A stretch of 47,854 bases of DNA. It comes from a virus. Within the stretch, counting starts at the first letter, position 1, and each line of letters starts with the position of its first letter. The position numbers were made by a program, and so were the translations under genes. The notes under the pieces are model-generated. The model was given only the letters and a program-made list of their open reading frames with translations. It was not told the origin of the DNA and did no database searches. The stretch is from positions 1 through 47,854 of IMG/VR virus record IMGVR_UViG_3300008117_000072. The stretch is one strand, 5' to 3'. Shown piece after piece: positions 1 through 20,583 of this stretch.

Positions 1-738
1 TCCTGAAGTTCCGTCTGTACCTGAAATGCCGTCTGTTCCTGATGTACCGTCTACTCCGTCAACTCCTGAAGTTCCGTCTGTACCTGAAATGCCGTCTGTT
101 CCTGAAGTTCCATCTACTCCGTCAACTCCTGAAGTTCCGTCTGTACCTGAAATGCCGTCTGTTCCTGAAGTACCGTCTATTCCGTCAATTCCTGAAGTTC
201 CGTCTGTACCTGAAATGCCGTCTGTTCCTGATGTACCATCAACCCCGTCTGTTCCTGAAGTTCCATCAATCCCATCAAGTCCTGAAGTTCCATCTACTCC
301 GTCAACTCCTGAAGTTCCGTCTGTACCTGAAATGCCGTCTGTTCCTGAAGTGCCATCTGTTCCTGAAATGCCGTCTGTTCCTGAAGTACCATCTACTCCG
401 TCAATTCCTGAAGTACCATCAACCCCATCAAGTCCTGATGTTCCGTTTATCCCTGAAGATCCAGATGTGCCTCTTGTTCCTGAAGATCCCGATGTGCCTG
501 AAGATCCCGATGTTCCGTTTATCCCTGAAGATCCCGATGTGCCCCTTGTTCCAGAAGATCCTGATGTGCCTGAAGATCCAGATGTGCCTCTTGTTCCAGA
601 AGATCCTGATGTGCCTGATGTTCCCGATGTGCCTCTTGTTCCAGAAGATCCAGATGTGCCTGAAGACCCTGATGTGCCATTTGTAGCTGATGTTCCTGAT
701 GTACCGCTGGTTCCTGTGTCACCAGATGTTCCAGTACC
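1..738 (-). repeat. Tandem 9-bp-based repeat array encoding Gly-X-Y triplets
   Basis: The DNA has a 9-bp period throughout, with higher-order units. From about 1 to 430 a unit of about 63 bp (21 codons, seven triplets containing GTDG and GISG) recurs several times almost unchanged. From about 430 to 738 a different sub-array, [10 protein letters not shown] with occasional GTRG or GING, takes over. Arrays of this sort expand and contract by slippage or recombination, so shaft length may vary between relatives. Confidence 0.85.
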
Positions 739-1029
739 CATCTGTGTCCAAATTGTTCCATCGGATTTATAGATATAATTGTCTGTTGTGTTGTAGTATA
801 TTCCGCCTAAAACGGGGGTGGGATCTGTTGTATATTTCGGTATTACCAATTGTTCGTCTATTATTACCCCATAAGACTCAATTGTTCCCGATACGGTTAG
901 ATTTTCTACAATAGATCCAGTACCATCTAACAGTGTTCTGTCGTCTACTGGATCTGTTTGTAGTAATCTATAAAATGATTCGGATACTGATAATTCAGAT
1001 AAATTTCTGGTTATTTTTGGATCTGCCAA
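1..1029 (-). CDS. Collagen-like (Gly-X-Y) tail fibre protein, 3' end outside window
   Basis: The reading frame on the minus strand opens with a TTG codon at 1029 preceded by a GAGAG ribosome-binding site, giving [17 protein letters not shown], and stays open to the window edge (343 codons visible). Residues 1 to about 97 form a non-repetitive head, ending in a segment reading [21 protein letters not shown], a kind of linker I associate with phage fibres. From about residue 98 on, every third residue is glycine ([10 protein letters not shown], then [13 protein letters not shown]), roughly 80 collagen-type triplets very rich in Thr, Ser and Asp. Such repeats build trimeric triple-helical shafts of phage fibres. 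It is the last visible gene of the leftward block, just downstream of a heptosyltransferase gene. The C-terminal receptor-binding part is not visible. The non-ATG start makes the gene easy to miss, and the opposite strand carries a long Pro-Val-rich shadow frame. Confidence 0.85.
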
Positions 1030-1162
1030 TTTTTTTCTCTCACTATATCAAAAAATGTATTGTAATGGAACATTTATTGAAATTTAGAAATGTTTTGTTA
1101 AGCTACAGTACTTGCAGAGTATATCTCAGAAATAAATATCATTTAAAAAAATATTATGTCAA

Positions 1163-2311
1163 TCAACTAACAACTTTTTTTTCTAATATGGGTTTAACCA
1201 TATCAAATGTGATAGATTTGGTACATTCAAATTGTTTTTCAGTTCCTTTGTGGTCAGGACACCAATTCCAATCACCCGCATCTAATCTGTGTCTGTTAAA
1301 ACAACTATTACAAACACTATCATTAAATACACGGTCAACCGAATCGTCAATAAATTCTGATATTGGATTACTAAATCCTGATATTAATACTATTGGCAAA
1401 TCTAATGTCCATGCCAACCAAGTTAATCCTGAACCTATTCCGATGAAAAACTCACAGGTTAGCATTTCTTTAATAAGATCTGTTATAGATCCTGCTGGAA
1501 ATTTTGTTGCTCCTATTGGGTGATTATTACCCATGTAACCATCCCCTTCCTTTGATAATATTACGGGTTCATATCCATGTTCCAATAAGTAATCGGTCAC
1601 TTGTTGCCACCCCGTTGGATTATTCCAATATTTTGCTTGTGCAGTGGAATGTATTCCAAACCCAACTTTCTTTTTCTTTTGAACTTGCGGTAGATTTAAT
1701 TTAGCTTTAACATGTTTAAATTCCAATCCTAAAATATCCGAAGCTGTTTGTTGTAAAGATATTTGTCTAAAATCTTTTGGATTTCTTGAATAATCAAAAA
1801 CACCATTCTCATTATAATACCAACCCAATGTGTACATGGCATACAAATCTTTAACAGGTGTTCCAGGCTCAACAAATTCTATATCAGGGTATTGATCCTT
1901 GAATAGGTAATTCCAAAAAGTTGAACATACTACTTTACATCCCCATTTTTCTCCAAACTCTTGAGCATAAGGAAACCAAGCTAATGTATCACCCAATGAT
2001 TTTGATTCTAATGCAATATAAACACGTTTTCCACGAGCATCATATTTGTGTTCGTGGATTAGTGTATCACCATCGTATACCTTACAGGTATATTGGTCAA
2101 AATATTTTTTAGTTGTTCTCGCCCAAGAATTTGAATTTATAATAGTTCTATATTCACATTGTCCATTATTGTTCCAAAATTCAACTCTATATTGTTTATC
2201 GAAAACGGATTTTATTTCAACAGTAGCACCACGAACAAAATTAACTATAACCTCAGTGGCTATTGTATTGTTTACCAAATTATCATTTTTATTTATATTA
2301 TCGTATATCAT
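1163..2311 (-). CDS. TibC/Aah-type autotransporter O-heptosyltransferase homologue
   Basis: 382 aa. I recognise the bacterial autotransporter heptosyltransferase family (TibC, Aah), which transfers heptose from an ADP-heptose donor to serine hydroxyls of adhesins. Supporting features are an N-terminal beta-rich region (1-90), the block VYIALESKSLGDTLAWFPYA (about 95-114) typical of the GT-B acceptor domain, a C-terminal donor domain with IGIGSGLTWLAW (about 292-303), and a four-cysteine iron finger (C334, C337, C351, C363) characteristic of this family. Length matches the family (about 400 aa). It starts 11 bp after the stop of the GT/methyltransferase fusion and lies 133 bp upstream of the collagen-like fibre. 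The fibre's Thr/Ser-rich triplets are plausible acceptors (inference). An alternative is modification of a host surface protein. Confidence 0.85.
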   Translation of the reverse strand: MIYDNINKNDNLVNNTIATEVIVNFVRGATVEIKSVFDKQYRVEFWNNNGQCEYRTIINSNSWARTTKKYFDQYTCKVYDGDTLIHEHKYDARGKRVYIALESKSLGDTLAWFPYAQEFGEKWGCKVVCSTFWNYLFKDQYPDIEFVEPGTPVKDLYAMYTLGWYYNENGVFDYSRNPKDFRQISLQQTASDILGLEFKHVKAKLNLPQVQKKKKVGFGIHSTAQAKYWNNPTGWQQVTDYLLEHGYEPVILSKEGDGYMGNNHPIGATKFPAGSITDLIKEMLTCEFFIGIGSGLTWLAWTLDLPIVLISGFSNPISEFIDDSVDRVFNDSVCNSCFNRHRLDAGDWNWCPDHKGTEKQFECTKSITFDMVKPILEKKVVS

Positions 2312-2321
2312 AGTTCACCTA

Positions 2322-4619
2322 TTATAATAAATGTTTGAATCTGTATTCCTCGCTTCTAATCTCGTCTTTAGTATATTTTTCAATAACGATACAATTTGGA
2401 TAATATGATATTGATTTTATATGTAAATCGTTTGTATGGTTACTGTAGTTATTATTTACAGAATGGTTTAATTTTACGAAATGATCTATTATATTTTCTT
2501 CACCAACCACATATCCATAGATAGTACTGTTTGGATTCCAATAGCTACATTCAATATCTTCTATCACATAAACACCACCCCAATCCAACATATTCTCAAA
2601 CAAATAATAAAACGATTTTAATTGATGGTCTATGACATGACTACCATCATCTATTATTATTTCACATTTTCCTATTTGATTTTTAATACGTGTCAAATCA
2701 TCTAAGTTACTCTGATCAGCTTTAAATACTTCACCACGTTCATATTTCAATTCAACACCTATATCCATACCGTATATTTTTGCCTTTGGTAGAAAATTTT
2801 CCCAAACTTTCAATGATTTTCCGGCATCTATACCAATTTCAAATATAGTACATGTCTTATCTCTGAATTTTTTAAGGTAGGTGTCGTATGGGTATTCATA
2901 CCTATGATCTATAGATTTATCACAACCAAATGCCTTTGATATTGTAGCGAAATCAGCACCTTCAAGATTATCTGCTGTTTCAAACTGTGAAGTACCCTCT
3001 CTATCCAATACATTTTCTGCCTTTAATGTTTCATATATCTCATAATTAATTTTTATACCATCCGTTTTCAAATAATGTCTATGTAATTTTCCCTCTAAGA
3101 TTGCAAACCCTTCACTGTTACCACCTGAATAGTATTCGTCCTTACTTTTATATTTTTGAAAAAAATCATTGATAGCTTCTATTTTTCCGGATATTATACC
3201 TGAACTGACACTATCTTCCATATAATTTGTAGTGGTGTGTTTATAGAGAATCAAATCTGACTCTTTTAATGTTTCGTAATTTTTAGCAAAAACGCTATCA
3301 TTAATTAGGTAATCGTAATTAATAATGTGTGTAATTTTTTTACCTAAACTCTGTGCATACCGAAGTGCATTTTGTATTAACGTGTACACAGCATATCCAT
3401 GTTCATAATCAAATAGTTTTGAGTGTCTAACACCATTATCATCTGTTTTAAAAGCATAGTAAGCAACATCATATTTTTTAAACTCATCACTATACAAAAT
3501 TGGATTGTTCTTTGTGTAAAGAACATGGTCACATAACTTTTCAACCGATTCATCTACAAAATAGTTAGTAGATAGTAAAACTTCTCTATTGATATTTTCT
3601 AAACACTCCATCAATAATCTTTTTTTATATGGAGTATTTGGGTGTGATAAAACAATTACTATTTCATCATCATTTTTTTTAGTTTCCATTTTTTGCCTTA
3701 AATTTTGTATGTTTAATCGTTTGTTATCTGTTATGTATGTTACCACACCATCATAAGCATTTTTGTATGTATCCAATTTTTTTATAAAAGTTGGCAACCC
3801 ATAACTTAAAGCCTCTTTTACCACCAATGGATTTAATTCAAAATTTGAAGTGAAATAAAATACATCAGCTGCCTTATAGAATTTATCAACATCATTTCTT
3901 TCACCGTGCCAAATACAATTATTTGGAAACTCCTTCATAATAGGTTCCCAATAATGTTTAAAATTTATAGCTTGATTACCAACGAAATGAAATAATACTT
4001 TTTCATCTTTAAATTCTTTTGCTAATTCTATTAACTCACCCTGATTTTTTCCAGGTGTAAATAAACCAACATTGAGTACGTGTTTGTAATTCGAGTCAAA
4101 TCCCAATTCTTTTTTCGCCAAATCTTTATCATACTCAATGTTATCGATGGGATATTCCCAAACATCACATATAGACTCGTCAAATACTTCAGTAAATCTA
4201 TCTTTACTCCATTCAGATACTAAAATATATTTATCAGCACCGAAAACTATTTGTGATGGATTGGTCATTGAACCGTGTGTTGTAACTACAATTGAATACT
4301 TTCTGTTATTGTGATATATTTTTTCTAATAGATCCGCCTTCACAAAAGATTCAGGTATTTCTTGGAAGTGTATAACATCGGGATTTACTTCTTCTATTAT
4401 TTCTAATATTTTAGTCTTGTCATCTAATAGACTATAAAACTTTTCACCCAATATATTAACCACTTGATTTCGTTGTACAACAAATACCCCACCTGTATGA
4501 TTTGAGTATTCTATACAATACACTTCATTTTCTTTACTGAATTCCTGTATCATCTTTAGTGTGTACTGTGGCAATCCACCTGTTGAGAGATGTGGTACTA
4601 TATGTAATATTTTTTTCAT
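2322..4619 (-). CDS. Three-domain glycosyltransferase / methyltransferase fusion
   Basis: 765 aa. Residues 1 to about 310 are a GT4-type (GT-B) glycosyltransferase, starting MKKILHIVPHLSTGGLPQYT with the glycine-rich N-terminal loop; the C-terminal part carries NPLVVKEALSYGLPTFIK, the usual nucleotide-sugar site. Residues about 318-545 resemble a GT-A-like sugar transferase (IVIVLSHPNTPYKKRLL at the start, HIINYDYLIND as a possible metal-site region); this assignment is weaker. Residues about 545-765 are a class I SAM methyltransferase, with FEIGIDAGKS (motif I, about 594), YGMDIG and IIDDGSH (about 656), resembling macrolide-sugar O-methyltransferases of the MycE/TylE type. One chain could add a sugar and methyl-cap it. 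RBS GAGGATG lies just before ATG 4619. It is followed closely by the heptosyltransferase gene. Confidence 0.75.
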   Translation of the reverse strand: MKKILHIVPHLSTGGLPQYTLKMIQEFSKENEVYCIEYSNHTGGVFVVQRNQVVNILGEKFYSLLDDKTKILEIIEEVNPDVIHFQEIPESFVKADLLEKIYHNNRKYSIVVTTHGSMTNPSQIVFGADKYILVSEWSKDRFTEVFDESICDVWEYPIDNIEYDKDLAKKELGFDSNYKHVLNVGLFTPGKNQGELIELAKEFKDEKVLFHFVGNQAINFKHYWEPIMKEFPNNCIWHGERNDVDKFYKAADVFYFTSNFELNPLVVKEALSYGLPTFIKKLDTYKNAYDGVVTYITDNKRLNIQNLRQKMETKKNDDEIVIVLSHPNTPYKKRLLMECLENINREVLLSTNYFVDESVEKLCDHVLYTKNNPILYSDEFKKYDVAYYAFKTDDNGVRHSKLFDYEHGYAVYTLIQNALRYAQSLGKKITHIINYDYLINDSVFAKNYETLKESDLILYKHTTTNYMEDSVSSGIISGKIEAINDFFQKYKSKDEYYSGGNSEGFAILEGKLHRHYLKTDGIKINYEIYETLKAENVLDREGTSQFETADNLEGADFATISKAFGCDKSIDHRYEYPYDTYLKKFRDKTCTIFEIGIDAGKSLKVWENFLPKAKIYGMDIGVELKYERGEVFKADQSNLDDLTRIKNQIGKCEIIIDDGSHVIDHQLKSFYYLFENMLDWGGVYVIEDIECSYWNPNSTIYGYVVGEENIIDHFVKLNHSVNNNYSNHTNDLHIKSISYYPNCIVIEKYTKDEIRSEEYRFKHLL

Positions 4620-4631: not shown

Positions 4632-7600
4632 TTAAAAATTTATAGAAGAAAATCCCTTTTCCTTCTTTATATCTATTTGACTATCTACAATATCACGGAC
4701 TACATCTATGTGTGATATTAGTATAATAAATTCCATTTGTGTTTTTAAGTAATCTAAAAACAAAGAGAAATTATTCAATACTGTTGCATCTAAAGAACCT
4801 AATCCTTCATCTATTACCATAAAGTTTGGTCTTGGTAATGATGATATGTTTATAAGTGCAGTTCTTATTGCAAGCGATGAAATAAACTTTTCCATTCCAC
4901 TTGATAACTCTAAAGCCCAAAAATGTTCATCGTCATAAACTATGTATGTGTTTATACTCTTACCATCGGTATCGAACAATACTTGAAAATCTACGATATT
5001 GGATAAAATATTATTTGTTTCAGCTTGTACTTTTGGTAGAGCTTGTGCTATTAATTCATATGGTACACCGTTTCTATTTACAGCCTTTAAGTAGTAATCA
5101 TAAGCATGAAATTCGGTTTCCAATTCTTTTAATTTATTTATGGATTCATTGCACTCATTTATAATCTGTTGATATACTTTTACTTCACCACTACATTCTA
5201 TTATTTTATTTTCTAATTCCTTTAAACGTAATGTTGAAAGATTATACTTTTCTTTTTCTATCTCTTTCAATTGTTTAAGTACCGTTTCATTTTTTAAAAT
5301 TGCGTCTTGATTCTCATGGTATCTCTGTATTAGCTCATCTATTTTTGTTATAGATTCTATCAATTCTTTTTTGGAATCATTCTTTGAATACAAAGTTTTT
5401 TCTAAATTATGTATTTGTTTTTGAACGTCAAATAGTGCATTTTCAATATGATATAACTTATCTAATTCACTATAAACAGATATGCCGATTTTTAGTTCTG
5501 TTTCTATTTCATTAACTTTGTTTTGTGTTAATTTCAAATCTTCCATGAAACCAATCAAATCATTTTCTGCCTTTTTAGCATCTTTAACAAAAACATTATT
5601 TACACAGAATTTACAATTAGGATCATATTCATGTGATTTCAGATTATCAATTTTTGATTCACAATGATTTACACTTGATTTTATTGCACGAACATCAGAT
5701 TCATACTTTGCCAATTCTGTTTTGAGAGAATCTATTTTATCTCGTTTATCAATTAATGCTTTTCTATCTATATTTGATAGACCAACCTGATAATCATTAA
5801 CCTTATTGTTTAGGGATTTTATTTCTGATTCCAATTCTTGAATTTCAGTCTTTACGGATTTTCCTTTTTTTACGAGGGTATCTCTTTTTTCTTCCAAATC
5901 TTCCAAAGATTTATTTTCCAAATTGACATCTATTTGTATTAGTTTTTTATTCAGTTTAATAACTTCTTCACTCAAATCTTCGATTGTTTTGTTTGTCAAA
6001 TCTCTATCATCAATTAACTCATCTAATTGTGTAGAGTATTGTTTAAACTTTACTTTTGATTCCGCTATTTTTGATGAGTAGTCTTTTTTACTAAATTCCT
6101 TTATAAGGGTTTGAACACTTTTTATATCATCAGAAGCAATGGCATTTAATTCTTCAAACAAATCTAAGTCTAAAAATTGAGCTAACAAGTCTTTACGTTC
6201 TCTTTGTGCCTTATCAACAAAATTAGTATTATTACCTTGAAGTGACATGGTTGTTATGATGAAATCATCATATGTACCCAAGTATTTTCTAATTATAAAA
6301 TTGGTAGAATCTCTATCTTGGCCATTGAGACTTGTTTTCACACCATCTTCTTCTGACCAAAAATCAACATTGACTTTTACATTTCCTTTTTTATCTTTAA
6401 CACCGTTTCTTTCAATCCAATATGATTTACCAGCAAGCATGAAGTTAAATTTACATCTAAAGGTTTCTTTGCTGTTATTCAAAACTTGGGAAGCTTTGTA
6501 TGTCCTTGAACATTTATCGAATATACAGAACATTATTGCGTCCATTATTGATGACTTCCCACTTGCATTGGCAGCAAATAATCCATATACACCATTCATT
6601 TTTGAGAAATCAACGATGTTACCTTCACCATACGAAAACATATTCTCAAATTCAAAATACATTGGTTGCCAAATAAGGTTTCTTACTATGTCTGATTCGG
6701 ACAACTTAGTATTTATGTTTCTGTTTATATTAGCAATTTTTTCCAATATGTCATCTGTTACATTATAACGAGAACGTATGAAATCTTTTATCAAAGAGTT
6801 TTGATGTTCAACATCACGCACGTCTCCAATTGGATTTGTATTTATTTGTAATTGACTCGTCAATTTATTACTTATACGTTGTACACGAATATCAACTATG
6901 TTTGCTTTAGATTTTAATTCGGTAACAATATTGAATATATCTGAATTATTGGTGTTGTTGGATTTTATTCTAACACAATTAAATTTTGAATATTCTGTTG
7001 GGTATTCCTTTACTACCCCGTTGTCAACTTCAACAGTATGATATGTCCAATCGTTTCTTATTCTTAAAAATTTTGATTTGTCATTCTTTATATCCCACTC
7101 TATTATACCGTGAATAAGACCTTCACCAAAATTTTGTTGAATCAAAGATCCAGCATAAGCAAATTTACACGTAGGTTCTAAGTATTGAAATTTATGAATA
7201 TCACCGAACATACCATAATCAAAGCCATCAAATTTTTCTATAGTTATGCTTTTATTTTTCATAGTGTTTCCACTATCAGTAGAAGACATATCTATTGCAC
7301 CATGAAACAACACTATTTTCTTGTTATCACTTTGTACATCTTTTGCTAATATAAAGTTTTCAGGATCTTCATATACAGAATTTAACACAAAATCTATATC
7401 ACCAATTGTGTAAACACCCGTTTCTTTTAGGTAAAATAGTTGATTAAAGTCACTATCAATCAATGATACTATTGGAGACAGTGCATCCATTCTACTCATA
7501 TTATTTAAATTGCAATCGTGGTTTCCTGCTATCAAAATTGTTGGTGCTATCTTTGAAAGTGTATCCAAGAAATTAGTAACCATACTAATTAATTCGGGTG

Positions 7601-7811
7601 TCATATCCGTTTTTGCATGTACAATATCACCTGCAAGATATATTATTGTATTTTTATTTTCGGATACCTTTTCTCTACACAATTCATATAGAGATTCAAA
7701 CACACTATTGTATTCATCGTGTCTTTTAAAATTACGAATGTGAACATCGGCAATGTGTAAGATTTTTTCTACCTTACTCATTCCCGATAAGTGTACATAT
7801 TCTTTAAGCAT
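4632..7811 (-). CDS. SbcD-SbcC (Mre11-Rad50, T4 gp47-gp46) fusion recombination nuclease
   Basis: 1059 aa. The N-terminal third is an Mre11/SbcD metallophosphoesterase with LHIADVHIR (D22, H24), AGDIVH, AGNHDCN, LFHGA and GDIHK in order. The rest is an SMC-like Rad50/SbcC ATPase: Walker A AANASGKSS near 411-419, two long coiled-coil arms, a zinc-hook CKFC near 733 (the usual CxxC), ABC signature LSSGMEKF near 970 and Walker B FMVIDEGLGSLD near 1000. All catalytic motifs are present, so the fusion looks functional. In T4, gp46 and gp47 are separate and process DNA ends for recombination-dependent replication. The start at 7811 has AAAGGA seven bases upstream and overlaps the primase gene by 8 bp; Met11 is an alternative start. 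Confidence 0.95.
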   Translation of the reverse strand: MLKEYVHLSGMSKVEKILHIADVHIRNFKRHDEYNSVFESLYELCREKVSENKNTIIYLAGDIVHAKTDMTPELISMVTNFLDTLSKIAPTILIAGNHDCNLNNMSRMDALSPIVSLIDSDFNQLFYLKETGVYTIGDIDFVLNSVYEDPENFILAKDVQSDNKKIVLFHGAIDMSSTDSGNTMKNKSITIEKFDGFDYGMFGDIHKFQYLEPTCKFAYAGSLIQQNFGEGLIHGIIEWDIKNDKSKFLRIRNDWTYHTVEVDNGVVKEYPTEYSKFNCVRIKSNNTNNSDIFNIVTELKSKANIVDIRVQRISNKLTSQLQINTNPIGDVRDVEHQNSLIKDFIRSRYNVTDDILEKIANINRNINTKLSESDIVRNLIWQPMYFEFENMFSYGEGNIVDFSKMNGVYGLFAANASGKSSIMDAIMFCIFDKCSRTYKASQVLNNSKETFRCKFNFMLAGKSYWIERNGVKDKKGNVKVNVDFWSEEDGVKTSLNGQDRDSTNFIIRKYLGTYDDFIITTMSLQGNNTNFVDKAQRERKDLLAQFLDLDLFEELNAIASDDIKSVQTLIKEFSKKDYSSKIAESKVKFKQYSTQLDELIDDRDLTNKTIEDLSEEVIKLNKKLIQIDVNLENKSLEDLEEKRDTLVKKGKSVKTEIQELESEIKSLNNKVNDYQVGLSNIDRKALIDKRDKIDSLKTELAKYESDVRAIKSSVNHCESKIDNLKSHEYDPNCKFCVNNVFVKDAKKAENDLIGFMEDLKLTQNKVNEIETELKIGISVYSELDKLYHIENALFDVQKQIHNLEKTLYSKNDSKKELIESITKIDELIQRYHENQDAILKNETVLKQLKEIEKEKYNLSTLRLKELENKIIECSGEVKVYQQIINECNESINKLKELETEFHAYDYYLKAVNRNGVPYELIAQALPKVQAETNNILSNIVDFQVLFDTDGKSINTYIVYDDEHFWALELSSGMEKFISSLAIRTALINISSLPRPNFMVIDEGLGSLDATVLNNFSLFLDYLKTQMEFIILISHIDVVRDIVDSQIDIKKEKGFSSINF

Positions 7812-8792: not shown

Positions 8793-8821
8793 AATATACG
8801 AAATTTATATCATATTTACAA
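8793..8821 (-). promoter_or_regulatory. Promoter for primase / SbcD-SbcC unit
   Basis: On the minus strand TTGTAA (8821-8816) is followed after exactly 17 bp by TATATT (8798-8793), preceded by TTTCG, as in the promoters at 40983-41011 and 41189-41217. The expected transcript start is near 8786, about 26 nt before ATG 8760. The -35 element overlaps the stop codon of the endonuclease I gene. Confidence 0.65.
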
Positions 8822-9223
8822 GCAGTTTTTTAACCATTCGTTAGGTATTTCTTTTTTTGCCCAAAGCCAACCTTTCTTATCACAATACTCTGCGTAAGTT
8901 GTTTTACTTCCTTTGTATAATTTTGCATTAGGATTTTGAAAAACGAATCGAATATCTATTCCTGGATATTGGTTGAATATCAAATCAAACTTTAATCGAT
9001 CAGTTTTTACCCAACGGCCTTTGGATTCTATGTACATTTTTGTACCATCTTTTTTTGTTAGTATAAAGTCTGGTGTGTAGTTGTGTTTAGTTTCTGGTTG
9101 GATATACGATATTTTTTCAGATTCATAACCAAATTGTTTTTTTGATTTGTTCAGTGATTCGTTTATAGTTTCTTCTAAACCACTTCTAAATCCGTGTTTT
9201 AACGCAACTTTATTTCTTTTCAT
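8816..9223 (-). CDS. T7 endonuclease I-like Holliday junction resolvase
   Basis: 135 aa from ATG 9223, chosen over the upstream in-frame TTG at 9244 because GGAAG lies 7 bp upstream and the start forms an ATGA overlap with the preceding gene. The protein matches phage endonuclease I (T7 gp3, 149 aa): GFRSGLEE supplies the first catalytic Glu (E17/E18), YTPDF the Asp (D52) and YIESKGRW the E66-x-K68 pair of the PD-(D/E)XK core. The enzyme resolves branched DNA such as Holliday junctions before packaging. T4-like phages usually use the unrelated gp49 instead, so this is a mosaic choice. The primase and the SbcD-SbcC nuclease lie downstream. Confidence 0.88.
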   Translation of the reverse strand: MKRNKVALKHGFRSGLEETINESLNKSKKQFGYESEKISYIQPETKHNYTPDFILTKKDGTKMYIESKGRWVKTDRLKFDLIFNQYPGIDIRFVFQNPNAKLYKGSKTTYAEYCDKKGWLWAKKEIPNEWLKNCL

Positions 9224-9978
9224 TTCAATCTTCCAAAAACCCAATTATTCAAAAGATATTCATTTATTTTAGATTTCATAACTTGTGATTCTATTATAGT
9301 ATTATTCATCCATTTAGAACCAATATGTGATTCACTCATTTTTTTTATAGATTCTTTTGATGGACTTTTGCCTATAAGTTTTGATGGTTTTCCCAATTTT
9401 GCATTTCTCATTTTTTCTTTAGATTCTTTTGAAACTATTTTTCCAGAATGAGCCATTCCAATTTTACTACGTGTTTCTGCCGATACAATACGACCCTTAT
9501 TGCCAATACCTATGTTTTTTCTATGTTCAATTGATAATTTTTTCCCACGGTTAGCTTCTGACAATTTTTTTTTAGTTTCTTCTGTTCTTGGCTTGCCATA
9601 TAGCGGATGTTTGTCCCCAGCTTGTATACCTATATGTGATTTTCTTAAATTTTCTCTGTATTTTTCTGTGTAAATTTTACCAATTACACCTTCTCCGCCA
9701 TCTGTCATATTTACTAATTTACCTTCACCCAAATCCATTCGTCCATATTTTTTTATAAATTCTATTTCTTTTTTACCCGCTAAAACCCAAGCTTCCTCTT
9801 TTGTCATATTTGCATTAGATTCCCATAATATTTCCACTCTATATCCATATTTGTTGACTATATTATGCCAATATTTATTTCGATTAGTACGAGATACTGG
9901 TCTTTTATAGTCAATACCACGACCTATGTAAAAAATATCGTTAGTATCTAATCGTATATGTGCATAAATAATTGCCAT
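9220..9978 (-). CDS. GIY-YIG homing endonuclease with NUMOD3 repeats
   Basis: 252 aa from ATG 9978, preferred over the in-frame TTG at 9990 (which overlaps the upstream gene more). The N-terminus carries the nuclease core: AIIYAHIR (GIY equivalent), IFYIGRG (YIG), the catalytic arginine region following it, and a Glu in TKEEAWVLAGKKEIEFI. Residues about 100-230 hold several NUMOD3-type DNA-binding motifs (ENLRKSHIG, KKKLSEANRGKKLS, KEKMRNAKLGKPSK, KKMSESHIGSKW). Free-standing enzymes of this type (Seg-like) spread themselves between related phages. It is inserted neatly between the tail block and endonuclease I, ending in an ATGA overlap with the latter and starting just inside the stop of the previous gene. 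No intron is visible. Confidence 0.92.
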   Translation of the reverse strand: MAIIYAHIRLDTNDIFYIGRGIDYKRPVSRTNRNKYWHNIVNKYGYRVEILWESNANMTKEEAWVLAGKKEIEFIKKYGRMDLGEGKLVNMTDGGEGVIGKIYTEKYRENLRKSHIGIQAGDKHPLYGKPRTEETKKKLSEANRGKKLSIEHRKNIGIGNKGRIVSAETRSKIGMAHSGKIVSKESKEKMRNAKLGKPSKLIGKSPSKESIKKMSESHIGSKWMNNTIIESQVMKSKINEYLLNNWVFGRLK

Positions 9979-9979
9979 T

Positions 9980-11812
9980 TTAGCAATCAAACCTTATAAC
10001 AATATTAATGTCCACATCTTTTCTTTTTTTAATTGGTGTTGCTAATTTTGCAACCGCTAATAAATTACCAAAATCGTCATATAGACCTATCGTTGTAAAA
10101 TACGGTCTAAATTCTCTATTAGATAAATATTGTTTTGGTTTCTGTTTTCTATCATATTTTATAATAGTTGAAGCATTTTGTGTGATATTAAAATCAGTTT
10201 TTGGTATTCTACAAACTACCTCGTGTTCATAAAATCGTGTAGAAGTTTTAAATTGAGCATTAAATCCATATTCGTTATTTTCATAGTCTAATATTCCAGT
10301 CTTACCCAATAAAGCATTAGAATATTTAGGCCTAAAATCCGATATGATCAATATGCCTTGATCATATAATATAGATCCTATTTTATTAGATTGATAAGCA
10401 TAGCCATGGCTATAGCTGTTGTCACTTAATTTATTAATTTCATTAGAGTTTAAAGCTTTACTAAAGACTTTTATTTCATCTAATGATCCTGAGAAGTGAT
10501 TAGATCTACCATCACTGCCTATTAAGAAATGTCTGTTATTCTGAACATTATCTGAAATCACAAAGCTTTGACTAACGTCTAATGTCCCATTAATCCAAAT
10601 TTCATATTGGCTTCCACTCTTTTGACACAAAACATGAGTCCATTCATTCGGTGTTAGTCCCGATGAAATTAAATCAACTCGTTCTATATTTGAACTTTGT
10701 GCAAAAACAATTGAATATGGGTTTGCATCCGTTCTATTTGTTATGCTTATATTGAATGGGAATTGTTCAATATCCGAATATTCTCGTAAAGATACTATTC
10801 CTGTTTTAGAAGAAAATTTATCTTGCATATTGATAGATTTTTTATTAAATAACGGATTCACACTTACATATTCAACTGATTGTGTTTCAGGTGTTTTTAC
10901 CCAAAAACTGAAAGCAAAGTCTAACTCTCCTGAAAAATTGAAAGCAACATCATCTGTTACTTCTAAGTAAGCACCATCAAAATTTGCGCATACACCAGTT
11001 GACTGTTCCGTTCCATTTACGTTTATGCCAGGTGAGTATGATATACCTCTAACATTATTGACAACAACTGAATTTAATCTATTTGATGTATCTATTACGT
11101 ATGGTTTCTTTTTATTTACAAACCCGTATTCTCTGTATTTTTCATTGAAACCGATTGAAAGGATTTGAGCTCTGTAATCAACAAACTCTGATTGGTTAAA
11201 AGATGTATCCAATATATTACCTTTACCGTCATCAATTATTTTATATTCCATTGATGTTTCGGGATTTACCATTGTCATATTAAATGTTCCTGGTCTTATT
11301 CCTTCGCCATAAAGGTTTCTCGGTAAAACTAAAATCGATCCTGTGTCAGCCAATAGGTTACTTTGATCATCATCAATAGCTGTTGATGCAAACTTATCAG
11401 GGAAATAATCTTTGTAAAAATTATGGTCTAAATAATACCATAATATTTTTGGGTCTATTGGTTGGTGTGGATAATCATTTGAATACAATGATGATGATAT
11501 ATTAATAACATTACCAAAATATTTGTGGTTTTCTGGATAGAAGAATCTATAAGCGTTTATATGTATATCATCAACTGAGTTTAATTTTTGTATGGTTACG
11601 TTTTGCGTTCCTAAATTTAATATCCAACGCTTTACCATATCTATCCAACTTGTATTTATATTTCCCCAAACTAATTCGTCTCCCGAAGCAGAACGTCTCA
11701 TGTCTATATTATTTGACGAAAAGTTCCATGTCTTATTAGCACTAAATGGGCGTACAGAGTAGTCACCGTTTCTAAGATTTTTGAAAAATATATTTATAGT
11801 ATTAGATTGCAT
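9980..11812 (-). CDS. Virion (tail) protein with LamG-like lectin domain, paralogue 1 of 5
   Basis: 610 aa. The central part (about 245-465) looks like a concanavalin A/LamG-type sugar-binding domain: FDGAYLEVTDDVAFNFSG, FSFWVKTPE, EWTHVLCQKSGS, YEIWINGTL and HFSGSLDEIKVFSKALN are its usual strands. The C-terminal about 120 aa (GSILYDQGILII ... FTTIGLYDDFGNLLAVAKL-ATPIKKRKDVDINIVIRFDC) are shared with the four upstream genes. The N-terminal 240 aa are unrecognised. Inferred to be an exposed tail or fibre-base component that may bind glycan. Promoter-less spacing of 6 bp to the upstream gene indicates one transcript. Confidence 0.7.
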   Translation of the reverse strand: MQSNTINIFFKNLRNGDYSVRPFSANKTWNFSSNNIDMRRSASGDELVWGNINTSWIDMVKRWILNLGTQNVTIQKLNSVDDIHINAYRFFYPENHKYFGNVINISSSLYSNDYPHQPIDPKILWYYLDHNFYKDYFPDKFASTAIDDDQSNLLADTGSILVLPRNLYGEGIRPGTFNMTMVNPETSMEYKIIDDGKGNILDTSFNQSEFVDYRAQILSIGFNEKYREYGFVNKKKPYVIDTSNRLNSVVVNNVRGISYSPGINVNGTEQSTGVCANFDGAYLEVTDDVAFNFSGELDFAFSFWVKTPETQSVEYVSVNPLFNKKSINMQDKFSSKTGIVSLREYSDIEQFPFNISITNRTDANPYSIVFAQSSNIERVDLISSGLTPNEWTHVLCQKSGSQYEIWINGTLDVSQSFVISDNVQNNRHFLIGSDGRSNHFSGSLDEIKVFSKALNSNEINKLSDNSYSHGYAYQSNKIGSILYDQGILIISDFRPKYSNALLGKTGILDYENNEYGFNAQFKTSTRFYEHEVVCRIPKTDFNITQNASTIIKYDRKQKPKQYLSNREFRPYFTTIGLYDDFGNLLAVAKLATPIKKRKDVDINIVIRFDC

Positions 11813-11818
11813 TTAGTA

Positions 11819-14353
11819 TTAAATCCTTCTTAACTTTACATTAACAACGTATTCATAACTACTGTCTTTGAGTAAAGGTTTTTTAAATTTACCAACCGCT
11901 AATAGATTATTTGAATCATCATACAAACCGATGCCTGTGACATAAGTTTTTGTTGTATTATTTACTTTATCGGTAAAAACCTTCATTGTAGAACCCGATG
12001 TATATGTATAATTATTTGAGTAGTTAAATTCATTTCTATTTATTCTACAAAAATAATTTTCGTCAGCATACATTTCAGCAGAACGCATATACCAATATTC
12101 ATGTTCCGTTCTTGAATTATTTGGTGAACAAGATCCACTTATTGACAAGAATAATTTTTTTGCATTGTCACCATCAATTGAAGCTGTTACTGTATTGAAA
12201 TTACAATACTTATTCAGCATATCTGCATCAAATAGTATAATACCTTTATTTGGAAACACATAACCCCAACCGTCCGCTACTTCATAGTCTATTGGACCGT
12301 CTTGTAAAGTACCTTCTACTATATTATAATATTCATCAAGTGCCCTTGGTTGATCTGAGTATATCGTTGATACCAAACTATCATCTATTAATTTAAATAT
12401 AGTATCGTTTTCCTGATCAAATTCAAAGTTACTTCCAGTATTTATCAACTGATTTGAACTTGATGATATTGGAGCTAATGATATTTGAAAATGTCCATTA
12501 TTTATTTTATCTTTAAACAATTCCCGATTAAATTGTAAGATATAAAAATGATCACTTCTCTTACCATTCTTAAATACTATGGAGTCATCTCCAGAAAAAC
12601 ATTCTGCCATGTATTTTTTATACAATCCTTTTGATGGGTATTGGTCTATGTCATATCCTAAATCACTAACGATATAAGATGAACCCGAACCTGATATATG
12701 TGCATAAGCTATGCTGAAAACGGATTCAGCAGAAACGCTTTGGTTGGTATCTGTTTTAACATTCAAATAGTATTTTGATTGTGGAAACTGTGGGTATTCC
12801 AAATAAAATACAGAATTTCTATCACTACCATTTGAAAATAATGGTTTTGTTTTGTAGAATAAATCTGATATTGCAAAATCACTGTTGTAGTCTAATCTCT
12901 TGTAAGCAAATTGCGGTAAATCGAAATTTGCAAATATAGATACAGGATTTAAAGGGGTTTCAGTTTGTGGTGGTGTTGTGGGCGTTACTGTTGTTGGTGT
13001 AACAGTAACATTAGTAAGAGTAAATGGTGACTCAAAATTTATTATACCATAACTTCCACTAACAGTTGATATATCATTTAGACTTGGGTAATTATTTTCT
13101 GCCTGAAATTGTGTGTATTTTTGTAGTAAATTATAAATTTTTTGATTTACCACATCTATTGCAGAAGAACTATTTGGCGTATTAATTTCAAATGCATTGT
13201 TTATTGAAGATGCTGTTTCACTTATTACATCTAATTCATCACCTATATCAACATCTTCAGTTCCATCATTTTGTATATTTGAAACAATTGATTCTATATT
13301 AAATATGTCTTGAACCTCTGTAAATATTTCAGAGACAATCATATCTTGAACTAATTGTAAATCTGTTATGTCAGATTTAGCCGTGTATAGTTTCTTGGTA
13401 GATATTGTGTTTATAACCGATTCTGCGTTTGGTCTATTTATTGGTTCGGTTACAAAAGATATTAGTCTTTTAAAGTTAGGTTCTTCAACTCTTGGTGGTA
13501 TAGTTGTTAACGGGTTATGTACTATAGAATTTTGAAATACTGTTCTTTTTTCTATGTTAGAAGAAAAATAATCCTTTATTACCTTTAGCATATGGTCTGA
13601 AACTAAAAATACAAAGTTAGCATATACGGCACCATCCATTTTATAGTAATCCGAATATACTAAATTGTTAGCATCATTTTCATCTATTGAAAAACCGTCC
13701 CACTCATAGCTTAATTTTATTTTACTGAAGTCTATATCATTTGGGTATTCACTATCGAACAGGAATAGTACATCAAATCTTTTTAAGAAGTCAGCTGATA
13801 CTCCGGTATCCTCTTGTATTTGCATCAAATGATTGTGTGATAATTTACCCAATCTATAATATTTTTTTGAAAACCCAATATCGTATGGTATCTTTCTACT
13901 GAGATCCTCCAACATATTGTTGGTTTGTAGTGGTGTTGGCCATTGCAATTTGTTGTTAGATGTGAAGAATATAGACTTTTCACAAGACATATACTCTTTT
14001 GGAAAATTACTTGGGTTATATGTGAAGTCTGAAATTCCGTATGTATCGGTAACGCAAAATTCTGTGCTTGTTGCATTTGTTATTTTAACAGTTTGACCTA
14101 TAGTTTTTATAACCAAGTCGGTAGTTGGAGCAGTTGGCTTTGTTCCGTTGAATTGAACGAATTGAGGATCGTTTTTATCACCCATAGATATACGGCTTTC
14201 CAATATACCTGTGAGTGGATTTATTACCCATATATTATTGTCGGGAACACCTAGGGTTATACTTTTTTTTATATCATCGCCGTCATTATCGGCCCTTTCT
14301 TCTATAAAAGATCCTAAGTAACCAACATCGAGTGCCTCAAATTCTTTAGCCAT
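11819..14353 (-). CDS. Virion (tail) protein, paralogue 2 of 5
   Basis: 844 aa. The N-terminal half is unrecognised and contains a Pro/Thr-rich linker (VTPTTVTPTTPPQTETP, about 460-480). The C-terminal about 370 aa match the common module of this five-gene family: FSIAYAHISGSGSS, YILQFNRELFKDKINNGHFQISL, a FKLIDDS segment, WGYVFPNKGIILFDADML, DGDNAKKLFLSISGS, FCRINRNEFNYSNN and the terminal TYVTGIGLYDDSNNLLAVGK. The exact role is unknown; location between large tail proteins and length suggest a baseplate-periphery or fibre-attachment protein. Confidence 0.65.
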   Translation of the reverse strand: MAKEFEALDVGYLGSFIEERADNDGDDIKKSITLGVPDNNIWVINPLTGILESRISMGDKNDPQFVQFNGTKPTAPTTDLVIKTIGQTVKITNATSTEFCVTDTYGISDFTYNPSNFPKEYMSCEKSIFFTSNNKLQWPTPLQTNNMLEDLSRKIPYDIGFSKKYYRLGKLSHNHLMQIQEDTGVSADFLKRFDVLFLFDSEYPNDIDFSKIKLSYEWDGFSIDENDANNLVYSDYYKMDGAVYANFVFLVSDHMLKVIKDYFSSNIEKRTVFQNSIVHNPLTTIPPRVEEPNFKRLISFVTEPINRPNAESVINTISTKKLYTAKSDITDLQLVQDMIVSEIFTEVQDIFNIESIVSNIQNDGTEDVDIGDELDVISETASSINNAFEINTPNSSSAIDVVNQKIYNLLQKYTQFQAENNYPSLNDISTVSGSYGIINFESPFTLTNVTVTPTTVTPTTPPQTETPLNPVSIFANFDLPQFAYKRLDYNSDFAISDLFYKTKPLFSNGSDRNSVFYLEYPQFPQSKYYLNVKTDTNQSVSAESVFSIAYAHISGSGSSYIVSDLGYDIDQYPSKGLYKKYMAECFSGDDSIVFKNGKRSDHFYILQFNRELFKDKINNGHFQISLAPISSSSNQLINTGSNFEFDQENDTIFKLIDDSLVSTIYSDQPRALDEYYNIVEGTLQDGPIDYEVADGWGYVFPNKGIILFDADMLNKYCNFNTVTASIDGDNAKKLFLSISGSCSPNNSRTEHEYWYMRSAEMYADENYFCRINRNEFNYSNNYTYTSGSTMKVFTDKVNNTTKTYVTGIGLYDDSNNLLAVGKFKKPLLKDSSYEYVVNVKLRRI

Positions 14354-14354
14354 A

Positions 14355-17300
14355 TTACCAATTCAATCTTATTTTTATTAAAATATCTTTGTCTGGAGTT
14401 TTCATTATTGGTTTACTTACTTTAGCAACAGCCAACAATTCATTAGCATCGTTATACAAACCAACAGTCGTTATGTATGTTGTTGGTCTTAATTTAAAAT
14501 ATTCATTTTTTATAAAGTTACCGTCAGTCGTGGGTTTATTATCCATCAATTGTAAAATCAAATCCACCTTGTCTTCACAATCATCCAAATTTTTAATTTC
14601 ATCCAAACTTCTTACAAAATTTGGAGGATTAACCATAGTTGGATTATTTGTATAATTTGAAGCATTCGTATTTACACGTATGTAATAATAATTCGATTTC
14701 TTAGTTGTTGAATTTCTTGCCTTCATTGGATAACCCAAAGCAGCTGCTCCACTTATAGCTGTAAACAGTTTATAAGCATTATCACCATCTACATTACTTG
14801 CACGATTAGTATTAAATCCCAATTCGTCATCCAACTTTTTCGCATCAAAAATTATTATACCTAATGTCGGATATACCTTACCATATGATGTAAAGGTTGT
14901 ATTTGTTGATATATCTCCAGATCCGGATGGATGTGCTCCTTTAGTCAAACTTCCACTTACAATATCGAATGAAGTATATTGATAATCCGTTGAAAATTCT
15001 GTTTCTAACAAATCATTTGAATTATCTATAAACGTCATAATATCTGAATTTGTGAAATCTTTCAGTGATATTTCAAAGTTTCCTGGATCTATCCTGTCTA
15101 TTAGTGAATCACGATTAAACGATATTATGTAAACATCTTTTTCGTTTGATGATAATATACCGTTATTGTATACTTGAAATTCTGTTTCAAATGGTTCTAA
15201 CGTTAATAATCTATGTTGTGAATATATTGCACGTGTCGGTGAATCATTTAATTCGTAACCCTCATATAATGATCCAGAACCAGCCTTAGATCCATATGCA
15301 ACTGAGAAATATGAAATTGGTAGTCCGTTTATTACTCGTGTTTCATCAACAATATCGTAGTGATATTTTTTAGTTTCAACAGACTGAATAGAACTTGTAC
15401 TGTATGAAAGAAGTGATTGGGTGAAATTGAATAGACCTCGTGTTTCTATTGAATCTCTTCCAGCAATTATATCTCTACCAACAGCAAGTGGATGATATAC
15501 TTTTATTGGAGTATCTATGCAATCAGCTCTTTGTATTTTTCTATTGAGCTTAATTCCAGGACCCAATCCACTATAATCTTGTGTTGTTAATACTTCAGGT
15601 CCTTTTATGTAATCATCCATACCTTGTATTTTATAATCAGGGTATTTGTGGAAAATCTTTGATGTGTGTAATTGATAACATCCTCTAATATCAGAAGCTT
15701 CAATATAAGGATCCTGTTCCTTAGCAACTTCTTTTGGATTACATACATCATTAAATCCGATTTCTGTTCCAGCAAATTCTACGTCTTCCCATACTTCAAA
15801 ATGAGTTCCATTTGCTTCAAATAACGCATCATCTATACGCCATTCATACTCAGGGTATAAATCACCTAAACAATTTAATTGCACTTCCCAATATTGTTCC
15901 CACACAGTACCGCTTATGTATTTTGTTCTATATCCACGATAGCAGGGATCACTTGGTATTTGTTCTGGTAATGGTGATCTACCATTTTTTGCCAATTTAA
16001 CTATAATGTCACCAACAGGACGTGTTTGATTTGGTATTGCTGTCTGCGATACTATAAAACATCCTGATTTCGGTGATAGACACTCCAATCTACCATAACC
16101 TCCGTTTGAAAAATAAGCATAGTTTATAGTTCTTTCCGGAAATCCTGATATTGGTGATACCAAATCAGGTCTATTTCTATTGGTTATTGTAGTTGAACGT
16201 GTTTGTCTTTGGTCATTTCTACCATCATATACTTTAACCATAGATTTGCCATAGAAAGTAGGCCGGTCTTTATCATTGTCTTTATTGTTTAAAAGTTCTG
16301 TAATATATTTGTTGGTATTACCATCAAATTTTTCACAAGGTGATGTATTCTTACCCCAAAACGCATTACCGTCTTCTATTTCATCAGCAACAGCTTTCAG
16401 TTTATTTATGACAGTACGTGCGTCTTCTCTTCCAGCTAATATAGCATCCGCTACTGCATTTGGATTGTCTAAGGTGTTAATGCCTACATTTTGATTTATT
16501 CCCGTGGCATCTACCATATTGGTATTTGCCTTCCAAGTTCTAATATCAATTATTTTGGATAAATCATAGTAGTATTGGTATACTGGTAATAATCCACCTA
16601 TAAAATCTTGACAGTTTTCATACCAAAAAGAACCGATGCCTTCACCTATAACAACATTTTCCAACACCTTTTTTTGTGTTGTTGTTGTTTTATTTGGTTC
16701 TGTATAACATTGGTAAATATCTGCAACTAATTTTACATTATTTTTAGTTGGTCTTGCATCAAAAAATTGTGAATTTATTTGTGGATTATTTCTTGATTCC
16801 ATGATGCTTTCACGGAGATTTTTTAAAACAAAAGTACGAGTACTACCTGTTTTTTTCTTACCCAATACAATTGAACCATCTCCTGGATCTTGTGGTTGTG
16901 TACCTATACCAACCAAATTCACAATATTAGCCCCATTTGTGGCCGTTACATTGGTATAGAATTCTAAAGGAAATGTGTAAAGTTGATCGGACTGTGGTAT
17001 GAATTTGATTGGTAATGGTAATTTATCGCCGGCCTTCAACACATACGGATTAGTAACAGTCATTGTTGGCCAAGTACCAATTGGTATAAATGACGCATTA
17101 GTTAATTGTGTGTATTGATATATTTTTAAGTCAGCAGATCCATTATTTTCTATTTCTATAACACCATCTGCAAAACCATTGGTAGGCACGGAGCCAAAAT
17201 CTAATGTATTCACACCATTATTAATACGTATGCCTGGTTGTGGGGTAATCGGACCACCACCCGTTTGAACACAATTTTCTGCAACACTTGCTTGTTGCAA

Positions 17301-17507
17301 GATACCCAAATCGGCTTCAAGGTCTTGTAGTTCATTTCTTAGAAATTCAGTAGGAATTCCTAAAGCATTATTTGATTGTATTTGTGAGTTGAGTTGAAAT
17401 ATCTCACCACCTTGACCATCTAATCCGCCTATTCTAAATATTTCTGATAATATTATGGGGCAGCCTAATGCTCTAGCTTGGTCTACTGTGTCATAAATAC
17501 GGGCCAT
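14355..17507 (-). CDS. Large virion (tail) protein with Ig-like domain, paralogue 3 of 5
   Basis: 1050 aa, the longest of the five paralogues. Residues about 95-205 look like an ASPM/HYDIN-type (choice-of-anchor D) beta-sandwich: LDFGSVPTNGFADGVIEIEN, then GTWPTMTVTNPYVLKAGDKL. A large unrecognised central region follows with several cysteines. The C-terminal about 330 aa carry the family module (FSVAYGSKAGSGS, TRAIYSQHRLLTLEPFETEF, IDPGNFEISL, YGKVYPTLGIIIFDAKKL, YIRVNTNASNYTNNPT, TYITTVGLYNDANELLAVAK). Two bases separate it from the next gene. Confidence 0.65.
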   Translation of the reverse strand: MARIYDTVDQARALGCPIILSEIFRIGGLDGQGGEIFQLNSQIQSNNALGIPTEFLRNELQDLEADLGILQQASVAENCVQTGGGPITPQPGIRINNGVNTLDFGSVPTNGFADGVIEIENNGSADLKIYQYTQLTNASFIPIGTWPTMTVTNPYVLKAGDKLPLPIKFIPQSDQLYTFPLEFYTNVTATNGANIVNLVGIGTQPQDPGDGSIVLGKKKTGSTRTFVLKNLRESIMESRNNPQINSQFFDARPTKNNVKLVADIYQCYTEPNKTTTTQKKVLENVVIGEGIGSFWYENCQDFIGGLLPVYQYYYDLSKIIDIRTWKANTNMVDATGINQNVGINTLDNPNAVADAILAGREDARTVINKLKAVADEIEDGNAFWGKNTSPCEKFDGNTNKYITELLNNKDNDKDRPTFYGKSMVKVYDGRNDQRQTRSTTITNRNRPDLVSPISGFPERTINYAYFSNGGYGRLECLSPKSGCFIVSQTAIPNQTRPVGDIIVKLAKNGRSPLPEQIPSDPCYRGYRTKYISGTVWEQYWEVQLNCLGDLYPEYEWRIDDALFEANGTHFEVWEDVEFAGTEIGFNDVCNPKEVAKEQDPYIEASDIRGCYQLHTSKIFHKYPDYKIQGMDDYIKGPEVLTTQDYSGLGPGIKLNRKIQRADCIDTPIKVYHPLAVGRDIIAGRDSIETRGLFNFTQSLLSYSTSSIQSVETKKYHYDIVDETRVINGLPISYFSVAYGSKAGSGSLYEGYELNDSPTRAIYSQHRLLTLEPFETEFQVYNNGILSSNEKDVYIISFNRDSLIDRIDPGNFEISLKDFTNSDIMTFIDNSNDLLETEFSTDYQYTSFDIVSGSLTKGAHPSGSGDISTNTTFTSYGKVYPTLGIIIFDAKKLDDELGFNTNRASNVDGDNAYKLFTAISGAAALGYPMKARNSTTKKSNYYYIRVNTNASNYTNNPTMVNPPNFVRSLDEIKNLDDCEDKVDLILQLMDNKPTTDGNFIKNEYFKLRPTTYITTVGLYNDANELLAVAKVSKPIMKTPDKDILIKIRLNW

Positions 17508-17515
17508 GGTTTACC

Positions 17516-18658: not shown

Positions 18659-18661
18659 ATT

Positions 18662-19813: not shown

Positions 19814-19843
19814 AAGTTAATCCACAGATAATTTGTTAGAATA

Positions 19844-20506
19844 TTACACTGTTCTTTGTGTTACGGTAACAGGTATTACGAAACGAGCACCTGTTTGATC
19901 ACCCGTAATTATAAGTTTTGTTGTTGCAGTTGTTCCTTGTGGTAATTGTTCACCTGTTGCAACTAATATGACACCAACGGAATTTGATATTCCTGATTTT
20001 GCAATTGATCTACCTTTTGGACGTGACATCTCATCTGAAAATGTAGCGTATGTATTATCCAAAATATGATATGAATATGTTAAATTAACATCTTCTGCTG
20101 CCGCTGTACCTGTATTGTTTAGATGTATGGTTTTTGGCATTATCTGTCTTCCAGACTGTGGTGATGTTTCATTTGTTTTCAAATCAATAACACCTGATCC
20201 TAAACCCGTTGAATCTGGATTGATATATGGAACATGGGTAGTTCCAGGAGGAAGTGTAATGAGTTTATATTTCAATGATTGTGTTTCATCAGGAACAGCC
20301 TGAAGTATTGGTAGGTTTTCGATTGTTGAACCATAATAGTCAGTTCCACCTGGGTGTGATGGATTCCATAAATCGTAATCAATTTCATCGTCTGCTAAAG
20401 CAAACTTTGTTATGTTAAAAGCACTTCTACCTTGTGCTAATAACTCACGACCTTTTTTTGTAAGTATCGCATCAACAGTTATTGTAGCGTTATTCAAATA
20501 AGACAT
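19844..20506 (-). CDS. Putative virion protein of large T4-like phages
   Basis: 220 aa, beginning MSYLNNATITVDAILTKKGR. I recognise this N-terminus (TKKGRELLAQGRSAFNITKFALADDEIDYDLWNP) as typical of a structural protein found in tail blocks of large phages, but no experimental role is known to me. The rest is beta-rich, ending in a carbohydrate-module-like sandwich (KLIITGDQTGARFVIPVTVT). ATG 20506 has a strong GGAG ribosome-binding site. A 105-bp gap with a dyad symmetry lies upstream, so this gene may head a transcript that continues through the five paralogues. Confidence 0.6.
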   Translation of the reverse strand: MSYLNNATITVDAILTKKGRELLAQGRSAFNITKFALADDEIDYDLWNPSHPGGTDYYGSTIENLPILQAVPDETQSLKYKLITLPPGTTHVPYINPDSTGLGSGVIDLKTNETSPQSGRQIMPKTIHLNNTGTAAAEDVNLTYSYHILDNTYATFSDEMSRPKGRSIAKSGISNSVGVILVATGEQLPQGTTATTKLIITGDQTGARFVIPVTVTQRTV

Positions 20507-20561
20507 AAGATACTCCTTCTTGAAAAAATTATCTAAACTAATAAATTTGTAATTAAAATCA

Positions 20562-20583
20562 GTTCATAGATATAAATATGAAC
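20562..20583. promoter_or_regulatory. Dyad symmetry upstream of tail-protein cluster
   Basis: GTTCATA and TATGAAC form a perfect 7-bp inverted repeat separated by 8 bp. It sits in the 105-bp gap between the large tail gene and the 19844-20506 gene. No T-run follows in the leftward direction, so it is not a classical terminator; an operator or a processing hairpin is possible. I could not define a promoter in this gap with confidence. Confidence 0.35.

Follow-up and report, generated by a model that had tools for sequence, protein, structure and literature searches.

Gene organization at the left edge of the window

The window analysed here is the whole of IMG/VR virus record IMGVR_UViG_3300008117_000072, a linear stretch of 47,854 bp whose ends are not known, and its left edge carries a candidate fibre-glycosylation cassette. 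Three successive leftward open reading frames (ORFs; 1..1029, 1163..2311, and 2322..4619), located where the initial annotation had placed them, encode a collagen-like fibre, a TibC/Aah-type enzyme, and a protein combining a glycosyltransferase family 4 (GT4) domain with a methyltransferase domain (Table 1).

Table 1. Features of the candidate fibre-glycosylation cassette, with positions in the window.
Feature	Positions	Strand	Basis
Collagen-like shaft, 80 Gly-X-Y triplets, runs past the window edge	1..732	-	Pfam Collagen, triplet count
N-terminal fibre head, TTG start	733..1029	-	phmmer, E=2e-10 to the N-terminus of WWT39289.1
TibC/Aah-type O-glycosyltransferase, 382 aa, putative fibre-modifying enzyme	1163..2311	-	TIGR04414, PDB 4rap, AlphaFold model
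Four-Cys "iron finger", Cys334, 337, 351, 363 (TibC Cys339, 342, 358, 370)	1223..1312	-	Alignment to TibC
Asp108 codon, counterpart of TibC catalytic base Asp110	1988..1990	-	Alignment to TibC
MycE/SpnK-type sugar O-methyltransferase domain, residues 552-765 of the 765-aa protein	2322..2966	-	phmmer, VIA-align
Middle domain without family assignment, about residues 316-551	2967..3674	-	Conserved in related cassettes
GT4 (GT-B) glycosyltransferase domain, residues 1-315	3675..4619	-	Pfam, VIA-align

The fibre ORF is open at the window edge, so that its C-terminus is missing. A head of approximately 99 residues is followed by the shaft, for which roughly 80 Thr/Ser-rich triplets had been predicted and exactly 80 are visible. 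The rule of a glycine at every third position (threshold, at least 20 triplets) is satisfied by 75 consecutive triplets plus five more, and the match to Pfam Collagen (PF01391) has E=4e-37. The commonest triplets counted are GTS (30), GTD (13), GSS (9), and GVD (9); the X position is occupied by Thr (47), Ile (12), Ser (9), and Val (9), and the Y position by Ser (45) and Asp (28), among others. Ser or Thr thus fills 102 of the 160 X/Y positions, and proline is entirely absent. Because the shaft lacks proline, it may or may not form a stable triple helix. Homology links the head to the N-terminal part of WWT39289.1, annotated as a "structural protein" of the cultured Microcystis phage Mel-JY01, which supports the fibre being a virion protein.

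Contig L002, 100% identical to the window across the enzyme, likewise stops within the repeats. Metagenomic contigs often break in collagen repeats (position 1 of the window, position 10199 of L002, L004, L005, and other loci); full fibres are consequently under-represented, and their C-terminal receptor-binding heads are lost.

The TibC/Aah-type enzyme

The 382-residue protein scores 286.3 bits against TIGR04414 (Aah/TibC; residues 20-376, E=3e-85), a family with a curated equivalog cut-off of 200 bits, and matches the sequence of TibC (PDB 4rap) with E=9e-58. Its AlphaFold model (pLDDT 87.9) superimposes on 4rap with a TM-score of 0.85 (E=7e-34). On both sequence and predicted fold, the assignment to the TibC-like family made in the initial annotation is firm. 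A better match to the lipopolysaccharide (LPS) heptosyltransferases, the outcome which that annotation had singled out as contrary, is ruled out, as the model fits WaaC/WaaF with TM-scores of about 0.5 or less.

In TibC, Asp110 acts as the catalytic base, and the donor-binding residues are Lys230, Thr226, Trp305, and Arg286, the last of which contacts the adenine of the ADP-activated sugar; Pro300 sets the stereoselectivity, and Cys339, Cys342, Cys358, and Cys370 hold the iron (PMC4358343). The active site and the finger are conserved in the phage enzymes: the equivalents of Asp110, Lys230, Trp305, and the four finger cysteines are invariant in 70 of 70 aligned phage homologues, and that of Thr226, present in the window enzyme, is Thr in 65 of the 70 and Ser in the others. 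At the thumb tip, through which the TibC dodecamer assembles, Phe265-Val266 of TibC corresponds to Tyr-Met in the window enzyme (Tyr in 53 and Met in 54 of the 70), and Phe368 is retained.

The GT4-methyltransferase protein

The N-terminal domain of the 765-residue protein matches Pfam Glycos_transf_1 with 54.5 bits (cut-off 26.4, E=1e-14), and VIA-align matches its structure to HepE (Z 24.7). The C-terminal domain is related to MycE (E=4e-18) and SpnK (E=7e-17) in a phmmer search against the PDB, with a VIA-align Z of 19.5, 31% identity, and conservation of the DDGSH and IED motifs. The middle domain is maintained across related cassettes, the Tyr-Asp of an NYDY motif being invariant; it received no PDB or PHROG assignment, and the structural look-up with the whole protein was dominated by the GT4 domain. 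Of the fusion initially described as two glycosyltransferases and a methyltransferase, the GT4 and methyltransferase parts hold, and the middle domain is not established as a second glycosyltransferase; the architecture is demonstrated only as glycosyltransferase-unknown-methyltransferase.

The same modules recur in other phages. Mel-JY01 carries them in one long ORF (1,234 codons stop to stop) in the order GT4-middle-methyltransferase-TibC, which is the gene order of the window, and a collagen ORF of 202 triplets lies upstream of it. Across 64 viral loci, the GT4 domain is fused to a TibC domain in 23 and lies no more than 1 kb away in 13 more. No GT4 homologue was found near any of 54 classical bacterial TIGR04414 loci.

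Linkage of the enzyme to Pro-free Ser/Thr collagens

TibC-like enzymes are frequent in viral contigs, with 412 relatives in one scan, and only four records carry one in the annotated phage collection. A Pfam Collagen match is present in 37 of 40 enzyme-positive viral records. The base rate was controlled by drawing viral contigs according to collagen type, blind to the enzyme, either as Pro-free (GTS repeats) or as Pro-type (GPX repeats); records with a real collagen ORF and a length of at least 30 kb were kept, and TIGR04414 was then searched across the whole record. The first Pro-type control was GC-rich, leaving four records at GC<0.42 and no significance, and an AT-rich Pro-type control was therefore added. 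The AT-rich pattern yielded 47 records, two of them with TIGR04414. One of these, L604/G254, actually contains a Ser/Thr collagen and was counted as such despite being drawn by the Pro pattern. L239, the single Pro-type positive of the comparison, also has 59 GSS triplets.

Co-occurrence of enzyme and fibre had been set beforehand as a check on the initial annotation, and it is borne out. At a length of at least 30 kb and GC<0.45, TIGR04414 occurs in 26 of 56 Pro-free Ser/Thr-collagen records vs 1 of 33 Pro-type records (p=8e-6), in a comparison that is matched for length and GC, incompletely matched for phage lineage, and made mostly on metagenomic fragments. At a length of at least 50 kb and any GC, the counts are 26 of 38 vs 1 of 38 (p=7e-10). 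The two genes are also close. In each of 11 records of 90-273 kb that were fetched whole, the distance between the enzyme and its nearest Ser/Thr collagen is 0-4.4 kb, compared with medians of 14-95 kb for random positions (combined p=4e-10). The linkage is specific to Pro-free Ser/Thr collagens.

Bacterial homologues

In 84,980 species genomes scanned, 80 bacterial loci were found. The homologues closest to the phage type belong to Methylobacter, Methylomicrobium, other Methylococcaceae, Polaromonas, and others, and mostly adjoin a short secreted protein or lipoprotein with a (Gly-Thr-Ser)n tract. The neighbour in L342 has a signal-peptide-like start followed by about 17 perfect GTS repeats, and those in L343 and L354 are lipoprotein-like, with the tract making up most of the protein. 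These tracts are short, at about 10-37 triplets, and the tract of L344 includes in-register Ser-Thr-Ser triplets without Gly. In the methanotroph chromosomes L337, L338, L342, L344, and L345, the small exported Gly-Thr-Ser protein and the TibC-like gene stand side by side in ordinary chromosomal surroundings; no description of this methanotroph pair was found.

The classical bacterial autotransporter heptosyltransferases (BAHTs) form a clade separate from the phage enzymes, with 100% SH-aLRT support, and often lie beside ORFs of 1,000-2,900 residues, as autotransporters would be. Across loci of at least 9 kb, a Ser/Thr tract is nearby in 40 of 61 non-classical vs 1 of 48 classical loci (p=6e-13). 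The pairing of enzyme and tract is widespread in aquatic phages, reaches bacterial chromosomes, and is not unique to this phage. What the phage and bacterial partners have in common is not the fibre but the Gly-Thr/Ser-Ser tract, which sits on proteins unrelated to each other.

Proposed function of the cassette

The recurrence of the pairing in many unrelated aquatic phages and in some bacteria suggests that phages decorate their own fibres, and the three genes of the window probably constitute a cassette that glycosylates the phage's own collagen-like fibre. We infer that the tract is the acceptor and that extension and capping of the glycan fall to the attached domains, in the following order. 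The TibC-like enzyme, acting inside the infected cell, would transfer a sugar to the Ser/Thr hydroxyls of the Gly-Thr-Ser and Gly-Thr-Asp shaft; the GT4 domain would then add one or more further sugars, perhaps together with the middle domain; and the MycE/SpnK-type domain would O-methylate a sugar hydroxyl. The virion would thereby end up with a long, dense, methyl-capped glycan sleeve, which may stiffen or stabilise the Pro-free triple helix, protect it from proteases, or tune adhesion. The methyl-capping initially proposed for the putative fibre glycan fits the sugar O-methyltransferase family of the domain.

Several points weigh against this proposal. The support is genetic and computational, and the records showing the co-occurrence are mostly fragments. 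The BAHT substrates known so far are beta-helical autotransporters and not collagens. The residue equivalent to TibC Arg286 is Leu in the window enzyme; the phage homologues mostly have Val or Leu there and keep Arg in 7 of 70 cases, and Pro300 is replaced by Gly. The enzyme and collagen genes point in opposite directions in 19 of 35 viral loci and hence do not form a strict operon. Among the Ser/Thr-collagen records, roughly half of those of at least 30 kb and 5 of 20 of at least 80 kb lack TIGR04414; a profile search of the enzyme-negative records, run with no positive control, found no diverged homologue, GT4 is rare among them (2 of 30), and the Ser/Thr content of the shaft is no higher in enzyme-positive than in enzyme-negative records. 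Conversely, megaphage W03 is TibC-positive and has no collagen match. Beside the enzyme-negative Ser/Thr collagens, no other glycosyltransferase appears among the 25 commonest families listed for 63 neighbouring ORFs. The enzyme-negative shafts may be unmodified, may be modified by host enzymes, or may belong to incomplete records. Examples of Ser/Thr-collagen phage records with no detectable TibC-like gene are L092, L098, L140, L145, and L201, of 91-219 kb.

The donor sugar is a separate matter. The initial label of O-heptosyltransferase stands in so far as the enzyme is TibC-like by sequence and fold; with Leu in place of the ADP-contacting Arg286, ADP-heptose is only a possible donor, and its assignment is not firm. 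Heptose-synthesis genes are mostly absent from 38 TibC-positive records, with TIGR02199 above its cut-off in one and gmhA in one; TIGR02199 matches of any strength occur in 8 of the 38 and are mostly weak. Supply of ADP-heptose by the host would be plausible but finds no support in the ADP-contact residue. The one large TibC-positive phage record that has no collagen match, LR756504.1 (L084; 636 kb), contains a strong gmhA homologue (251 bits), and this megaphage may use its TibC-like enzyme differently.

Alternative explanations

The enzymes could instead remodel a host surface glycan, such as the LPS O-chain or core, for example as a superinfection block, with the fibre as a neighbour in a shared, variable host-recognition island. 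Glycosyltransferases in the host-recognition clusters of aquatic myophages, the pelagimyophages, have been interpreted as remodelling the host surface (PMC7029224), and LPS pathways commonly hold GT4 and methyltransferase domains. TIGR04414, however, comprises enzymes that modify proteins and have a ring-forming finger, which the LPS heptosyltransferases lack, the linkage concerns Ser/Thr collagens and not collagen fibres generally, and the pairing is found again on bacterial chromosomes, next to exported (GTS)n proteins and with no phage island; we regard a host glycan as an unlikely target. Somewhat less probable still is a different protein substrate in the virion or host, such as a large baseplate-proximal structural protein, with the Ser/Thr collagen as a passive neighbour. 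BAHTs do act on large adhesins, several large unassigned structural proteins are encoded nearby (9980-24919), and about half of the Ser/Thr-collagen phages are without the enzyme, but the Gly-Thr/Ser-Ser tract is the sole feature common to the phage and bacterial partner loci. Glycosyltransferases of T4-like phages modify DNA bases. The same has been proposed for other freshwater phages (PMC10202952), as a means of evading restriction, but TIGR04414/TibC enzymes act on proteins, and neither the domain fusions nor the collagen linkage would have a role there, which makes DNA an exceedingly improbable substrate.

A further possibility is a variant of fibre glycosylation and not exclusive with it: the shaft would be modified as proposed but would form a mucin-like, extended chain stiffened by its glycans, the Gly spacing serving to keep the enzyme in register and not to pack a triple helix. 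We hold this variant tentatively, as a serious minority view. It would accord with the complete lack of proline, with the occurrence of the short bacterial tracts in monomer-like lipoproteins, and with the L344 triplets that break the Gly rule, but the shafts of the phages extend over dozens to hundreds of triplets and keep Gly strictly, their X and Y positions show a consistent bias, and phage fibres are typically trimeric. Glycosylation of Thr is a recognised means of stabilising collagen without hydroxyproline, in the discussion given in PMC3368898, from which a Pro-free shaft would gain; given the short bacterial tracts and the Gly-less triplets of L344, a mucin-like sleeve is equally compatible.

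Beyond the window itself, fibre glycosylation may be part of a broader pattern, which we advance with some reserve: an undescribed, large TibC-like subfamily could be dedicated to the Gly-(Thr/Ser)-Ser tracts of phage fibres and of exported bacterial proteins, with glycans replacing proline and hydroxyproline as the stabiliser of the shaft and the enzyme and tract moving together as a module. The pairing yields a substrate prediction for a widespread phage glycosyltransferase that has no functional description in the literature searched, and it takes the BAHT family beyond autotransporters to the collagen-like tracts of phages and methanotrophs. It also offers a candidate answer to the stability of Pro-free "collagens", in which sugar would take the place of hydroxyproline. 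If the proposal is true, dense methyl-capped fibre glycans would change the view of how phages recognise hosts, adsorb, and decay in freshwater, and the enzyme-plus-tract pair would be a simple means of producing glycosylated repeat proteins.

Other genes in the window

Adjacent to the cassette, an ORF of 1059 residues (4632-7811, minus strand) fuses an Mre11/SbcD-like phosphoesterase and a Rad50/SbcC-like ATPase, which are two genes in T4 (gp47/gp46). A putative homing endonuclease with three NUMOD3 motifs (9220-9990, minus strand) overlaps a T7-like endonuclease I gene (8816-9244). The structural protein at 9980-11812 (minus strand) has a concanavalin A-like (Laminin_G_3) domain and is a candidate carbohydrate-binding tail part. 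Far from the fibre cassette, a second phage glycosyltransferase is encoded at 43110-43988 (plus strand; phrog_2644, E=1e-58), and adjacent tRNA genes for Glu(TTC) and Met(CAT) are situated at 44736-44889 (plus strand).

Comparison with known systems

The window enzyme resembles the BAHTs, such as TibC of enterotoxigenic Escherichia coli and AAH, in fold (TM-score 0.85), in sequence (about 36% identity where the two align), and in the catalytic Asp, the sugar-site Lys, Thr, and Trp, the four-Cys finger, the hydrophobic thumb tip, and a repetitive, hydroxyl-rich neighbour. Window-type enzymes differ in being phage-encoded, in lying outside the classical clade with Arg286 and Pro300 replaced, in their linkage to Gly-Thr-Ser tracts and not to autotransporters, and in their frequent fusion to GT4 and methyltransferase domains. 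The methyltransferase domain shares its family with the macrolide sugar O-methyltransferases MycE and SpnK but, in the window, is fused to a glycosyltransferase and encoded next to a protein glycosyltransferase.

Among collagen-like proteins, BclA, the glycoprotein of the Bacillus exosporium with glycosylated Gly-X-Thr repeats, has collagen-like repeats with hydroxyl residues in common with the phage fibre. BclA is nevertheless a spore protein with Pro-containing repeats, carrying other sugars added by other enzymes. The EPcl fibres of E. coli phages and prophages also have collagen-like shafts of Gly-X-Y triplets but are Pro-rich and contain charged residues, and recombinant EPclA is shown to be non-glycosylated (PMC3368898). 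Among the viral records compared, TIGR04414 is hardly ever linked to such Pro-type collagens.

In mycobacteriophages, the substrates of glycosylation are likewise different from that proposed here, as they are not known to be collagen-like shafts. Self-glycosylation of the mycobacteriophage virion (Freeman et al. 2023, as cited in PMC12691614) nonetheless offers a parallel, since in that account the phage sugar-modifies its own virion proteins, in another host group and by other enzymes. A search of the open-access literature returned no description of TIGR04414 in phages or of its pairing with collagen. Virion self-glycosylation in mycobacteriophages and the action of BAHTs on autotransporters are already known, and the pairing of TIGR04414 with collagen-like fibres is new as far as that literature shows.

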